Source: Saprospiraceae bacterium
GTDB lineage: Bacteria > Bacteroidota > Bacteroidia > Chitinophagales > Saprospiraceae
Length of the DNA stretch: 64,000 bases
Reading direction: 5' to 3'
Assembly (NCBI GenBank): GCA_028279185.1
Contig: JANQSS010000027.1
Span: 1 to 64,000, forward strand
Under the pieces are notes generated by a model. The model worked only from the letters and a program-made list of their open reading frames with translations. It did no database searches and was not told where the DNA came from. Below, piece by piece: positions 38,169-47,816 of the stretch (positions within the stretch are counted from its first letter, which is position 1; each line of letters starts with the position of its first letter). Made by a program: the position numbers and the translations under genes.

Positions 38169-39371
38169 TTATTCTACAAGTGGTACAGAAGAGTGATAAT
38201 CGGCAAAAATTTTGTCAGTAAATTGATTGAGAAGGTCAAATACTTCATCGCTATCATCCCGTTGCACAATCAAACCGACATGATACTTTTTGTCCAATGT
38301 CCACCACACAGCTGGATGCTGAAGTGGGCCGTAGTCTGGTGTTTCGAACTTACTTAAGGTAACGATGATTCCTGCATTTGAGTTACTTGGTTTTGGTGGC
38401 GTGTAGGATTGTCCAAGTAGCATGGCGGACTCAATTTTTGCCCACTCTGCCCAAAGATTGATTCCGCTGGCTGCTTCCACCATTTCGGCAAGGTGGGCAC
38501 CGCCAACACGGGCTGATGTTTCCAGAAAATAAAATTCGCCGTCAGCCTCTCCTTTTATAAATTCTGAATGAGAAGCACCGAAATTTAATCCAAAAGCCTT
38601 TAACAATCTTTCATTCAATTGTACCAGCGTCTTGCTTTCATCTGAATTTTCCGGCAAGCTTTGAGATCGAAATACACCACCACCATGAGCAATTTCAAAT
38701 GGTGGTTGCAAATATCGAGATGAGCGGGTAAAAAGTGCTTTATAATTCGTAAACAGGGAATCGACATGATAGACGTGACCCGGTTTAAATTCTTCTATTA
38801 AATAGGTGTGTCTAATATCTTGATGCTCATCATTCCATTTCCAAAAATCCGCCGCACTATTGAGTTTTCGAATTCCCAATGCACCCGCGTCGGACCGGGG
38901 TTTTACAACATATGGGCCCTCGCTATTTTCAAAAAACTTATTTATTTCTTCGTTATTAAATAAAGCCGTAAAACCCGGGATTTTGATTTTATTTTCCTCT
39001 GCAATCATACGCATGGCCAACTTATCGTAGAAGTGCCGAGCCGTTGTATCGCCCATTCCAGGTGACCGGAATTCTTCCCGCAACATGGCTACTTTTTTTA
39101 CATCGTAATCATCGAGTGCAATTATTTTGTCGATGTTGTGTTCCCTGAAGATGTAGGCCGTTCCAGCCATGAATGTCTCCATGTCCCAATGCCGACCATC
39201 ATTTTGAGGCATAAAAAAAATATCTTGAAGACATTCACGTGGCCAGGGTTCGGATTCAGTTTTTTGCGAAGAAACTAAGAAGACTTTATGTCCCAATTCA
39301 TGCAGCGCTATGAGAAATTCTTTGCCTTTAAAATCACATGCGACGCAGAGAAATGTTAACTGTTTGGCCAT
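38169..39371 (-). CDS. ATP-grasp carboxylate-amine ligase
   Basis: 400 residues. Seen: an N-terminal Rossmann-like domain (LTFLCVACDFKGKEFLIAL), ATP-grasp lysine segment YVVKPRSDAGALGIRKL, the IEEFKPGHVYHVDSLF strand, and the metal/catalytic block FYFLETSARVGGAHLAEMVE, where the usual ExNxRxGG is read as ETSARVGG. Members of this broad family make dipeptides or attach amino acids to small acids. Substrates are unknown. The ATG at 39371 follows the M17 peptidase stop by 10 bases; a start at 39467 would overlap that gene. It is the last gene of a three-gene operon with an esterase and a peptidase. Confidence 0.87.
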   Translation of the reverse strand: MAKQLTFLCVACDFKGKEFLIALHELGHKVFLVSSQKTESEPWPRECLQDIFFMPQNDGRHWDMETFMAGTAYIFREHNIDKIIALDDYDVKKVAMLREEFRSPGMGDTTARHFYDKLAMRMIAEENKIKIPGFTALFNNEEINKFFENSEGPYVVKPRSDAGALGIRKLNSAADFWKWNDEHQDIRHTYLIEEFKPGHVYHVDSLFTNYKALFTRSSRYLQPPFEIAHGGGVFRSQSLPENSDESKTLVQLNERLLKAFGLNFGASHSEFIKGEADGEFYFLETSARVGGAHLAEMVEAASGINLWAEWAKIESAMLLGQSYTPPKPSNSNAGIIVTLSKFETPDYGPLQHPAVWWTLDKKYHVGLIVQRDDSDEVFDLLNQFTDKIFADYHSSVPLVE

Positions 39372-39381
39372 AATATTTTCT

Positions 39382-40857
39382 TTAGGTAAGGTTTTCAACC
39401 CAAGATAATAATAATAATATTCCAAATCCAGTAGCGCTATAACCTTTTGCATAGGTCGTATTGCCAAAAGCCGTACCAGCTATATCCAGGTGTGCCCAAT
39501 TTGCGTGCGCATCTGTAAAATGCTCTAAAAATTTGGCTGCAGTTATGGCGCCACCGATTGGCTTCGTACTTAAATTTCGAATGTCTGCAACATCAGAGAC
39601 CAGGTATTGATCGTAATCATCCCATAATGGTAGTTGCCAAATTCGATCTCCACTTTTTTCTCCGGCGACAATTAAAGCTTCCGCTAGTTTATCGCTTTTT
39701 GTCATAAGACCGGCGGCGTGTGATCCAAGTGTACGTACTATACTTCCGGTTAAAGTTGCCAAGTCGACCACATAGTCAGGCTTGTATTGCGTAATAGCAT
39801 AATTGAGGCCATCCGCAAGAATTAATCGCCCTTCGGCATCCGTGTCGATCACTTCAATTGTACTTCCCTTAAAGCTGCCAATCACATCTCCGGGTTTGAT
39901 AGCGTATTTGTCAACGCTATTGTCTGTGCAGGGAACGACTGCAACGATGTTTGCCTTGATCTTTAGCCGGGCGGCTAATTCAATCGCACCAATAACAGCA
40001 GCAGCCCCACCCATATCACTTTTCATGTAATGCATGTTTTGTGATGGTTTGATTGACATGCCTCCAGTATCGAATGTAACGCCCTTACCTACGATGGCAA
40101 CTGTGGGAGTATCTTTAGAGCCAGCACCTGTGTATTCAGCAATTATGCATTGGGCTGGATCTTCACTACCTCGATTTACCGCTAATAAGGCCTTAAACCC
40201 CTTTTCTTCCAGTTGCTCTTTATCGAAGACCGTTACCTTATATCCATACTTTTTGCCAGAATCTACAACATGACGGGCTAAGTCTTGAGGCCGCTTATGA
40301 TTGGCAGGTGCATCGACCAATGACATCGACGAAATTATGGCCTCGGCTTCGTGTTTAACACGTTCGAACAATTGGTCTAATTCTACTTGCTTTATGCTAT
40401 CTGACACAACGCAGATTGAATTTATTTCGTGTTGTGTGCACGATGGCTCCGTTTTTAATTTGCCAACGTTATGCAAACTGAGTAAATGCGAACGCAAGAG
40501 GGTGGTCAGCAATTGACGGTGTTTATCATTTTTCAGTAATCGCAAATCAATAGTCAAACTATCACTGATTGTCCTACCATGTTTTTTAATAAATTCGGCG
40601 GCGCTATGATTTAATGCTGCTTGATTATTGAATTTTATCGACCACAAAATCGAGGCTATGGTTTTGCCGTTCTCCGAATTAAAACTCTCAATCGATTTGT
40701 TCTTCGAATTCTCAAGAATTGAGAGCATCCGGCCTATAGCAGGTATGCTGACATCCTCAGGTGGCTGAAAAGAAGATATTTCTTGGCTGTTGAATGGTAA
40801 TATTAAAGTTGTGTGCTCTGAACTATTTTGGTAGGAAGTTGATATTTGTAAATTCAA
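39382..40857 (-). CDS. pepA: M17 family leucyl aminopeptidase
   Basis: 491 residues, normal length. A two-metal aminopeptidase that removes N-terminal residues from peptides in the cytoplasm. Seen: GKGVTFDTGGMSIKP with metal-binding Lys and Asp and the catalytic Lys, MKSDMGGAAAV with the second Asp, and IDTDAEGRLILADGL with the Asp/Glu ligands and the catalytic Arg; the first residue of the usual NTDAEGRL signature is Asp here. An N-terminal M17 cap domain covers about the first 150 residues. It lies between an esterase gene (11 bases upstream) and an ATP-grasp ligase gene (10 bases downstream), all in one direction. Confidence 0.95.
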   Translation of the reverse strand: MNLQISTSYQNSSEHTTLILPFNSQEISSFQPPEDVSIPAIGRMLSILENSKNKSIESFNSENGKTIASILWSIKFNNQAALNHSAAEFIKKHGRTISDSLTIDLRLLKNDKHRQLLTTLLRSHLLSLHNVGKLKTEPSCTQHEINSICVVSDSIKQVELDQLFERVKHEAEAIISSMSLVDAPANHKRPQDLARHVVDSGKKYGYKVTVFDKEQLEEKGFKALLAVNRGSEDPAQCIIAEYTGAGSKDTPTVAIVGKGVTFDTGGMSIKPSQNMHYMKSDMGGAAAVIGAIELAARLKIKANIVAVVPCTDNSVDKYAIKPGDVIGSFKGSTIEVIDTDAEGRLILADGLNYAITQYKPDYVVDLATLTGSIVRTLGSHAAGLMTKSDKLAEALIVAGEKSGDRIWQLPLWDDYDQYLVSDVADIRNLSTKPIGGAITAAKFLEHFTDAHANWAHLDIAGTAFGNTTYAKGYSATGFGILLLLSWVENLT

Positions 40858-44313: not shown

Positions 44314-45873
44314 TCACCCAATCTCATTCATCAACTCCTCTAATGAAATAACATCCTCCTGTGATTTGTCCTTCTCCCAGGAGAGAAATAGTGGATTCTT
44401 CAATTTCAATCCACACTTATGTCGTCGAGAAGGTTCGACACCGTCAAACGAAATTTTAATAATTATAGATGCTCGAACACTGTAAACCGGGCCGAATCGC
44501 TCAATCAGATTTTCACGGATGAAGGCACGAATTGCCAACCTTTCTTCTTCTTCCAGATTAGGAATGACCTTGGTGAAGGGTATTAAATTGGAGCCTTGTC
44601 TTGCACCCAACGTCAACTCCACAAATTCATTTGACCGATAGCCCTCTCCTCTCCGAGCGTATAACAATACGCCACATGTCGTCTGTGCTTTTGCACTATA
44701 TTTGATCCAATGAGTTGCTGTATTGTAGGCATCGTTTTTAGCTTTAATGATCAAGGCGCGACTGTTCATTGTTTTAGCCGATTCCCAAATTTCTTGAATA
44801 GTTAAAAATTCTGAGTCCAATAGATTTTCTGCCAATTGTAGTCGATCTGTGTTGGACATTTCAGCGAATAAGTTTTGAAGAAATACTAGTCGCTCTTCTA
44901 ATGTAAGGCCGGTAACATCCTGACCTGCAGATCGCATGATATCGAAAGCTAAAAAAGACATCGTTAGTTTTTCGAGGTCTTTTTTGGTGATTCGTTTACG
45001 ATCAATCCGTTTACGAACTTCTGATTTAGGCAATATTTTTCCGTTGGAAATAGCGATTATTACACCGTCCAGAATCGTATTTTTTGGTAATGAAATATGG
45101 TTGAATTCTGGAAATTTGTCTGTAATTAATTCCAATCGTCTCGACCATATTTCATGTCCGTTGTCATGTGTTAGTAATTGGCAGCGAACGCCGTTCCACT
45201 GATATGATATAAAATGGTTCTCCCATGTTGTACTATTTAAATCAAGATTGTTTTCTACCGGTTCGATAATAGGAATGGGTAACACATTATGTTTGTCCTT
45301 TATTTCACTTCTTAACTTCGACACTCGTAGAGGCGTTTTATCCTGCACATAATGAAAATTGTATGTGGTAGCATCCAAAGGTTGATTTAAATATTGAGCT
45401 AATGCCGCACATAGTACGGAAGAGGAAACGGGGCTGCGAAATGTACTCGTAATGATTTTATTAAAGTAATAGCGTTGCGTTAGGGCTAATTTCTGCCAGC
45501 TACTTATAATAAAATGATCGATTTCTTCTTTATTACTTCGAACCAGTTCTACCTCTTTTAATATTACTGCCAATTCTATAGAAATTGCTTTACCGGGCTT
45601 CGGGTACGATAGACTGATGGCTTCAAGGATGTCACCCGTGGCATCAATGCATTGCTCAAAAATGTGCTCAGAAAATTCAATATGGTTTATAAATAATGTT
45701 ACTAGTTCTTTCTTCGAGCATAGTCGCTTGAATGGATGACCTCGCAGTAAGTGGACAGACCAATTCAGCGATTCTTCATCACAATGGGATAAATAGGCAT
45801 GTACTTTTTGTATTTGATCTTCTTGAGAGGACGGCACACCTAACTCATCAATCAACCGGGCGAATTTCTCCAT
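44314..45873 (-). CDS. ATP-dependent DNA ligase-like protein, catalytic motifs degenerate
   Basis: 519 residues, the normal length of the ligases that pair with an MBL-fold exonuclease. Domain order is intact: N-terminal helical domain (1-200), nucleotidyltransferase core (215-395) and OB domain (400-510). But the adenylated lysine is missing: motif I, normally K-x-D-G-x-R, reads YQWNGVR (Gln 225, Asn 227). Motif III begins LDGV rather than LDGE, motif IV SRALIIK lacks the EG pair, and motif V WIKYSAK has lost its second Lys. FLAFDIMRS and EIWSRR are kept. Unless another residue can be adenylated, it cannot join DNA. The exonuclease gene ends 3 bases before it, so the pair is co-translated. 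It may act as a DNA-binding partner. Confidence 0.88.
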   Translation of the reverse strand: MEKFARLIDELGVPSSQEDQIQKVHAYLSHCDEESLNWSVHLLRGHPFKRLCSKKELVTLFINHIEFSEHIFEQCIDATGDILEAISLSYPKPGKAISIELAVILKEVELVRSNKEEIDHFIISSWQKLALTQRYYFNKIITSTFRSPVSSSVLCAALAQYLNQPLDATTYNFHYVQDKTPLRVSKLRSEIKDKHNVLPIPIIEPVENNLDLNSTTWENHFISYQWNGVRCQLLTHDNGHEIWSRRLELITDKFPEFNHISLPKNTILDGVIIAISNGKILPKSEVRKRIDRKRITKKDLEKLTMSFLAFDIMRSAGQDVTGLTLEERLVFLQNLFAEMSNTDRLQLAENLLDSEFLTIQEIWESAKTMNSRALIIKAKNDAYNTATHWIKYSAKAQTTCGVLLYARRGEGYRSNEFVELTLGARQGSNLIPFTKVIPNLEEEERLAIRAFIRENLIERFGPVYSVRASIIIKISFDGVEPSRRHKCGLKLKNPLFLSWEKDKSQEDVISLEELMNEIG

Positions 45874-45876
45874 TTT

Positions 45877-46860
45877 CTATTTCGGTTGTTGGTTAAGGCG
45901 ATGTGATACTGTCTTAGCATTGTAGCCGAGGTCACGTAAATGTTGGCCAAACGTTTCGGTAAACCCATGCATCACATAAATATTATCGGCTCCGGTTTCT
46001 TCAACTGTTTGAATTAATTCAGACCAATCGGCGTGATCTGAAACAACAAAATGCCGTTCCGGTCCACCAAGTCGTCTTTTTTTCGTTTGATTCCAGCCAC
46101 TGGCTGACGCGGAAGAGAAGTCGCCTAAACTGTTTGCCCATTCACTTCGTGCTGCAGAGGGTGACCCAATTATTAGCGCATTCGATAAGTCCATTTCACT
46201 TTCCAATCCTTCATACAACTCGTATGGATGAAAATCTATTCCTGCCTGACGCAAAACTTCATTTGTTTTATAAATAGTCGGATCACAATAAATCGGACCT
46301 ATGGGTTCTTTCACCATTTGCATTAGTCGCTGTGCCTTGCCAAGTGAATAACCCATGAGCAAACTAGCCCGTTTTTTTTGCCGATTTTCCTGCCACCATA
46401 ATTTTATTTCTTCTGCCAACTCCTCTTCGGATTTCCATTGATAAATCGGTAGACCGAATGTACATTCGGTAACAAAATGATCGCAGGGAACAACTTCGAA
46501 AGGACGACAGACATTATCTATTGCTCGTTTGTAATCTCCTGTAATTACCCATGTTTCTCCTTTGTAAGAAATACGAACTTGTGCCGAACCCGGGACATGA
46601 CCTGCCGGATGAAAACTAAATGCTACACCGTTTAATTCAAAAACTTCATTAAAATCGAATGTCGTACAATTTTTAATACGATACCGATGATCCATGATGA
46701 TTGCGGTAAGTGGCGTCGCAAAATAATGACCGCAGCCCTTACGCGCATGATCTGAATGTCCGTGGGTAATAATAGCACGTTCTACTTTTTTCTCCGGATC
46801 CACATAGCAATCAGCCTGTGGCACATAAAATCCTTTATTGGTAAATTCGACGAGAGGCAT
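45877..46860 (-). CDS. Ligase-associated DNA exonuclease (MBL fold)
   Basis: 327 residues. Metallo-beta-lactamase/beta-CASP-like nuclease of the bacterial family found next to an ATP-dependent DNA ligase and a ligase-associated helicase, thought to act in DNA repair. Seen: THGHSDHARKG with His 33, His 35, Asp 37 and His 38, FHPAGHVPGSAQV, ITGDYKRA with a metal-binding Asp and VVSDHADWSEL with the late His, so the nuclease site looks intact. Three bases separate it from the ligase-like gene. The helicase of the usual three-gene set is not here. Confidence 0.92.
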   Translation of the reverse strand: MPLVEFTNKGFYVPQADCYVDPEKKVERAIITHGHSDHARKGCGHYFATPLTAIIMDHRYRIKNCTTFDFNEVFELNGVAFSFHPAGHVPGSAQVRISYKGETWVITGDYKRAIDNVCRPFEVVPCDHFVTECTFGLPIYQWKSEEELAEEIKLWWQENRQKKRASLLMGYSLGKAQRLMQMVKEPIGPIYCDPTIYKTNEVLRQAGIDFHPYELYEGLESEMDLSNALIIGSPSAARSEWANSLGDFSSASASGWNQTKKRRLGGPERHFVVSDHADWSELIQTVEETGADNIYVMHGFTETFGQHLRDLGYNAKTVSHRLNQQPK

Positions 46861-46976: not shown

Positions 46977-47681
46977 TTATAGCAAGTACATTATTAATCC
47001 CATGACGACCATGGCAACATCCTCTACGATGGTCACAGTACTCATGGGTAGATTAAAAGCCGTTCCAAGACAAGCACATTTTATTTTTTCCTTTTTTGAC
47101 ACAGCACGAATAACACCGATAGAGCTGAAGGACATTAAAATAATCATTGCAGGTAATACAAATGACAGTTTATAAGAAGCGATGAGTGCAAGCCCTATTC
47201 CCAGTTCTAAAAAGGGGTACATGAATCCGTAAGCTGGCCATTTGGAGGCCAATAAATCATATGTCGAATAACTGTCGGCGAATCCCGAAAGATCAATCAG
47301 CTTAAACGAGGCAAAGAATACAAAGAACATACCCATGAAGTAGCGCATGCCAGATTTTAATCCGGGGTTGCCTGTGGATAATGACAGAACTAGGGCAAGG
47401 AGGCTGGCTACAAGAACAATTACTAATACAGGCTGATAAATTTTATACCAGGGATCCAGGTAAACTTTGGTCTGAGGTTGTTCGAGGTGATATGGACCCA
47501 GTGTTGAAACAGCGGTAGCCAGGTTTTCATTTGAGATTGTCGTATCACTTTCGAGGGTGATCAGCCCACTCGACAAGTCGATATCGATAGATTGAATTGG
47601 CAATGAATCAAGCAGGCCAGTACGAATTTTTGTTACGCAGCCTGGACATGTCATGCCCGATATATGGTATGTCGTTTTCAT
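46977..47681 (-). CDS. HMA heavy-metal domain fused to MauE/DoxX-like membrane protein
   Basis: 234 residues. Seen: an N-terminal heavy-metal-associated domain (about 1-65) with GMTCPGC (Cys 12, Cys 15), then four predicted membrane helices at about 85-105, 115-135, 155-180 and 185-205 with a KCACLG segment in the last third, as in MauE-like proteins. The HMA domain binds Cu or another soft metal. The MauE-like part may handle thiols or electrons. It is probably an inner-membrane metal transport or delivery protein. The ATG at 47681 fits the HMA start; an ATG at 47738 adds 19 residues. Divergent from atpD. Metal is inferred. Confidence 0.85.
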   Translation of the reverse strand: MKTTYHISGMTCPGCVTKIRTGLLDSLPIQSIDIDLSSGLITLESDTTISNENLATAVSTLGPYHLEQPQTKVYLDPWYKIYQPVLVIVLVASLLALVLSLSTGNPGLKSGMRYFMGMFFVFFASFKLIDLSGFADSYSTYDLLASKWPAYGFMYPFLELGIGLALIASYKLSFVLPAMIILMSFSSIGVIRAVSKKEKIKCACLGTAFNLPMSTVTIVEDVAMVVMGLIMYLL

Positions 47682-47816
47682 AAATAACCAATGCTCATCT
47701 GTCTCATAAACCCAATCGCACAATTTTAGTTTGTACATTTATCAAATAGCTCATTTTTTATTGGTTATTCGTCATTTCAATGATTGAAAGAATATGGTCA
47801 ATATTCGGCTGTGGCC

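Follow-up and report, generated by a model that had tools for sequence, protein, structure and literature searches.

A LigB-type DNA ligase homologue without its catalytic residues, kept beside an exonuclease in Saprospiraceae: a candidate non-catalytic DNA-binding protein

The window considered here (the whole stretch of DNA that was analysed, 64,000 nucleotides from a Saprospiraceae bacterium) carries on its reverse strand an exonuclease gene followed by a gene related to ATP-dependent DNA ligases, with 3 bases between the stop codon of the first and the ATG of the second. The two genes, and the features of the second that matter to the argument, are these:

45877..46860, reverse strand: TIGR04122 ligase-associated exonuclease of the MBL/beta-CASP fold, 327 aa, first gene of a presumed two-gene unit
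44314..45873, reverse strand: pseudo-ligase, a catalytically degenerate homologue of LigB/TIGR04120-type ATP-dependent DNA ligases, 519 aa, with domains DBD (residues 1-200), NTase (201-392) and OBD (393-519)
45184..45204, reverse strand: motif I, YQWNGVR, residues 224-230 (canonical YKWDGIR); the catalytic Lys225 is replaced by Gln (codon 45199-45201) and Asp227 by Asn
45061..45063, reverse strand: motif III, Glu271 replaced by Val (LDGV)
44755..44760, reverse strand: motif IV, Glu372-Gly373 replaced by Arg-Ala, so that the metal-site Glu is gone
44695..44697, reverse strand: motif V, second Lys393 replaced by Ser, first Lys391 retained
44410..44424, reverse strand: RHK(S/C)G loop of the OB domain, residues 484-488

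The exonuclease scores 388 bits against the TIGR04122 profile, above the cut-off of 325, and its structural model matches the MBL/beta-CASP proteins CPSF73, INTS11, SNM1A and Apollo with Z up to 30. HGHSDH, H88, D109, H276 and H298 are all kept, and they are invariant in 13 aligned relatives, including those that lie beside degenerate ligases. A reading of the sequence alone had described an exonuclease with all its metal ligands 3 bases from a full-length, undamaged ligase frame. Spacing and ligands are confirmed, and the 519-codon ligase frame is indeed intact, with no internal stop.

The pseudo-ligase finds its closest sequence homologues, at about 30% identity, in the LigB-type ligases (TIGR04120, NF006701), which belong to a cluster with an Lhr helicase, an MBL nuclease and a phosphoesterase. 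According to PMC10140301, what the LigB/Lhr helicase/MBL nuclease cluster does in bacteria has yet to be established. Likeness to these ligases is global: the exonuclease neighbour, the full-length alignment (positions 3-515 against TIGR04120) and the DBD-NTase-OB architecture, seen in that alignment and in an AlphaFold model of residues 1-519, are all shared. Nonetheless the protein falls below the cut-offs of both profiles (275 bits where TIGR04120 demands 400; 299 where NF006701 demands 543), while it exceeds the Pfam gathering cut-off for PF01068 (78.2 bits, cut-off 26.2). The helicase associated with such ligases, TIGR04121, is found above cut-off elsewhere in the genome, as an Lhr-type 810-aa open reading frame on another contig, and NAD-dependent LigA is present as a 731-aa open frame. 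A genome-wide search found no other PF01068 protein, so the idea that a second active ATP-dependent ligase in the same genome complements the pseudo-ligase was rejected.

The AlphaFold2 model is confident over all three domains (pLDDT 90.1, pTM 0.82). Closest to it in shape is human LIG1 in its closed, DNA-encircling form (5.4 Å over 504 residues, Z 24). Free archaeal ligases give similar Z with rmsd of 12-21 Å, a gap presumably due to domain rotation. The closed shape of the model may simply follow from the active relatives in its alignment, and so is not evidence of its own.

What separates the window protein from intact LigB-type ligases is its active site. In 127 intact homologues, Lys and Asp of motif I, Glu of motif III, Glu of motif IV and both Lys of motif V are each invariant. 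The window protein has Q225, N227, V271, R372 and S393 in their places, keeping only the first Lys of motif V. The losses that the sequence-only reading had listed in motifs I, III, IV and V are all correct on this comparison, and two may be added: both Arg of motif VI are gone (S498/E500), and motif Ia carries E247L. As judged from these motifs, the residues required for self-adenylation and nick sealing are absent.

Could this be an artefact of sequencing, assembly or frame? The assembly is fragmented (324 contigs) and the genus is represented by one genome, which is the most that can be said for the idea. There are many separate substitutions with no frameshift or stop, and like losses occur in many genomes of independent assemblies. 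Because five to six separate motifs are lost, and the same ones are lost in many other genomes, chance or assembly error is scarcely credible.

Those other genomes came to light in a set of 153 aligned homologues, deliberately enriched for low scorers, of which 26 (the window included) are degenerate. Twenty of these lack the Lys of motif I, having Q, L, M, N, F, W, Y, G, E or H in its place, and some others retain the Lys and have lost the neighbouring Asp. The 25 besides the window have lost the same active-site residues to varying extent, and the Glu of motif IV is missing from 25 of the 26. In a first draw of 150 genomes, less biased than this set, a normal motif I is missing from 12 of the 67 ligase rows aligned, the window again among them. 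Gln in place of Lys is thus no strain-specific error, and the possibility, raised with the sequence-only reading, that close relatives all have Lys fails, since many members of the family lack it; the window has no congener in the set. A DNA-pattern scan of genome contigs with the window protein, whose genus is represented by one genome, found no close relatives. For pattern scanning the exonuclease alignment was used, the mixed ligase alignment having no stretch conserved enough.

Degenerate versions span at least 14 genera of one family, and most likely nearly all of them belong to Saprospiraceae. In a sample of 80 named exonuclease loci, drawn from several phyla, motif I reads KWDG in all of the approximately 68 readable ligases outside Saprospiraceae. 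An order-wide survey added two degenerate cases outside the family (L242 and L243), one of which has lost only the Glu of motif IV; scores pointed to none in f21, a large family.

Then there is the phylogenetic evidence that catalysis has been lost repeatedly. Losses were counted on the exonuclease tree, assuming that exonuclease and ligase are inherited together. The ligase gene tree was not used, because its degenerate members form very long, mutually attracting branches. Mapped on the exonuclease tree, degeneracy requires eight changes. Active and degenerate loci stand as sisters within a genus three times (L120 with L076, support 99; L043 and L123 with L128, support 99; L050 with L057, support 94), and a tree that places all degenerate loci in a single clade fails the AU test (delta lnL 98.7, p-AU 0.004). 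This makes three independent losses well supported, and ten or more likely, though the higher count depends on weak branches. The window locus itself is a long branch on this tree, without a resolved position.

The degenerate frames are under purifying selection. Six pairs in which both ligases are degenerate give dN/dS values (YN00, for pairs whose dS is usable and not saturated) of 0.17 to 0.26, with upper 95% bounds for the whole gene no higher than 0.35. Single domains, the nucleotidyltransferase domain among them, are also low, with upper bounds no higher than 0.51. In each such pair both ligases have the same active-site residues missing, so what is measured is constraint on a protein that has already lost them. 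It is weaker than the constraint on active pairs, whose values run from 0.06 to 0.14. These measurements were made in relatives; for the window protein the evidence is its intact frame and its confident fold. The earlier suggestion of selection for a non-catalytic role stands, therefore, for the relatives, which are full-length, recurrent and constrained, and for the window itself it goes as far as frame and fold carry it. Put in terms of pseudoenzymes, the degenerate relatives combine an intact frame with dN/dS clearly below 1, and the window offers the intact frame only.

An alternative view is that these genes are decaying slowly, that ligation by the pathway has become dispensable in Saprospiraceae, and that what we see are relics under residual constraint only. 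It is true that evolution accelerated once catalysis was lost: at 45-55% exonuclease identity, mean identity is 57% between two active ligases, 36% between a degenerate and an active one, and 31% between two degenerate ones, while the rate of the exonuclease stays normal. It is also true that dN/dS exceeds that of active ligases, that exonuclease genes with no ligase beside them are common, and that genus g18 includes genomes whose pseudo-ligase is detached from the exonuclease as well as genomes with an exonuclease and no ligase at all. Against decay stand the dN/dS values, whose upper bounds lie far under 1 for all unsaturated degenerate pairs and for every domain, and the frames that persist at full length through very long branches. 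The gene still adjoins the exonuclease in most degenerate lineages, and residues outside the pocket are selectively retained. Slow decay is, on these grounds, unlikely, though it is still a main rival.

The pattern of retention bears closer inspection. At 17 positions of the nucleotide pocket and motifs, retention among the degenerate ligases is 0.26, compared with 0.58 at other invariant positions (p 1e-5). By domain, the DBD is best retained (0.65, compared with 0.50-0.52 in the others; p 0.007). The retention result is similar with one sequence per genus. Retention of at least 0.85 is seen at W70, E84, W126, G143, the FGPV turn (460-463) and R484, K486, S487 and G488, the last four lying in the OB-fold loop. 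A basic residue (R or K) is kept at 484 in all 26 degenerate homologues, and K486 in 25, with Arg in the remaining one. Not everything outside the pocket is spared. R871 and F872 of LIG1 are nick-contacting residues, and the positions presumed from the alignment to correspond to them are mostly lost in the degenerate ligases (retention 0.15). Because of this, nick recognition has probably changed, at least.

Might some ligase activity survive? Ligases without the Lys of motif I can in principle use pre-adenylated ends, as exemplified by T4 Rnl2 K227Q, and on that precedent the degenerate proteins might seal only pre-adenylated DNA (step 3), or else work through another lysine. Against this, the Glu of motif III, the Glu of motif IV, the second Lys of motif V and the Arg of motif VI are gone as well, and the homologue alignment reveals no new conserved lysine among the degenerate members. 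Reduced activity is very improbable. With the Glu of motif IV almost universally lost, and other motifs lost besides, none of the three steps of ligation is to be expected.

I propose, with belief and doubt evenly balanced, that the pseudo-ligase is a non-catalytic DNA-binding or scaffold protein, preserved by purifying selection, which would act as partner of the adjacent MBL/beta-CASP exonuclease. A three-domain ligase of LigB type would no longer adenylate itself, coordinate metal or seal DNA. What remains, a clamp of ligase fold made of DBD and OB fold, would hold duplex DNA or DNA ends, and might position or recruit the exonuclease in a physical complex, perhaps also the Lhr-type helicase. 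Sealing would be left to LigA, by a hand-off from the clamp.

The physical pairing of pseudo-ligase and exonuclease, which the sequence-only reading had raised in the form of a possible DNA-binding or regulatory subunit of the nuclease, is suggested by three things. The first is gene adjacency: of the first 12 degenerate ligases, the window included, 10 have the exonuclease beside them (in one case within 1.3 kb). The second is the existence of natural exonuclease-ligase fusions, which are mentioned in PMC10140301, citing Ejaz and Shuman 2018. The third is an analogy. Artemis (SNM1C), whose fold is also MBL/beta-CASP, makes contact with the N-terminal, first helices of ligase IV (PDB 3W1B/3W1G; PMC4037875), so that there too a DNA nuclease of this fold is paired with a ligase, the bacterial pair being known here by the adjacency of its genes. 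The contact on the Artemis side, however, is made by a long C-terminal tail, which the 327-aa bacterial exonuclease does not have.

Other observations count against the partnership. Exonuclease genes without a ligase neighbour occur in many genomes, and, such loci being common, the exonuclease does not always need a partner. In genera g18 and g3 the degenerate ligase lies apart from the exonuclease. Of 21 degenerate genomes only 12 give a complete match to the helicase, and two more give partial matches, some of the absences being due to contig ends. One may ask, then, whether the scaffold serves mainly a partner other than the exonuclease, such as the Lhr-type helicase or LigA. The helicase open reading frame in the window's genome, its complete counterparts in just over half of the degenerate genomes and the pseudo-ligases of g18 and g3 speak for this. 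It is nevertheless improbable, given that most degenerate loci, the window's among them, adjoin the exonuclease and that several degenerate genomes give no full-length match to the helicase.

Ligases that serve without catalysis have precedents. Poxvirus A20 contains an inactive ligase and works as a processivity factor (PMC11142717); a ligase fold without catalysis is there put to structural use in DNA metabolism, as that of the pseudo-ligase would be. It differs in being viral, in having only the catalytic and OB subdomains and in working within a DNA polymerase holoenzyme, with an unrelated partner. Human ligase IV inactivated by K273A still promotes repair, through another ligase (PMC9638927, PMC10858965). 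Holding DNA ends and promoting repair without catalysis is what the analogy would lend to the pseudo-ligase, but K273A is an engineered mutant of an active enzyme, whereas the loss in Saprospiraceae is natural, recurrent and extends to nearly all motifs. Among the open-access papers searched, which do not include the main primary papers on the P. putida cluster, no earlier description of such a bacterial pseudo-ligase was found.

A broader statement is that in Saprospiraceae the ligase of the LigB pathway has become, repeatedly and in perhaps ten lineages or more, a clamp without catalysis, dedicated to holding DNA ends for an Artemis-like nuclease. This is plausible, with doubt somewhat the stronger. 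If the clamp reading is true, then the essential output of this uncharacterised repair pathway would be the processing or holding of ends and not ligation. Ligases that have died several times and yet been kept beside an unchanged nuclease amount to a natural separation-of-function experiment, in which the ligase fold would matter and sealing would not. The few known non-catalytic ligases, poxvirus A20 and ligase IV in its structural role, would be joined by a natural and recurrent bacterial case.

The loci vary a good deal in their arrangement. In L053 (genome G009), about 1.3 kb of other sequence lies between the degenerate ligase and the exonuclease. The two g18 ligases L150 and L151 look like an early stage, with Lys replaced by Leu, Glu of motif IV replaced by Thr or Ile, and motifs III and V canonical; the exonuclease sits elsewhere in the genome. 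In g3, L046, L127 and L115 are very remote ligase homologues with nearly all motifs gone and no exonuclease beside them. Two of these three, compared with each other, still give dN/dS of about 0.17, and other members of the genus carry an active ligase. In many Saprospiraceae a TIGR04122 exonuclease stands without an adjoining ligase homologue (L130-L140, L142, L143, L145-L149), and genomes G129, G201 and G248 have a second copy of the exonuclease, with no ligase beside it.

Within the window, the gene just upstream of the exonuclease and on the same strand (46977-47738, reverse) encodes an HMA (heavy-metal-associated) domain with MTCPGC, fused to a MauE-type membrane domain. Further along the reverse strand, an M17 aminopeptidase frame (39382-40857) overlaps by 86 bases a downstream ATP-grasp-like frame (38169-39467), which begins at TTG; its true start is probably further in.
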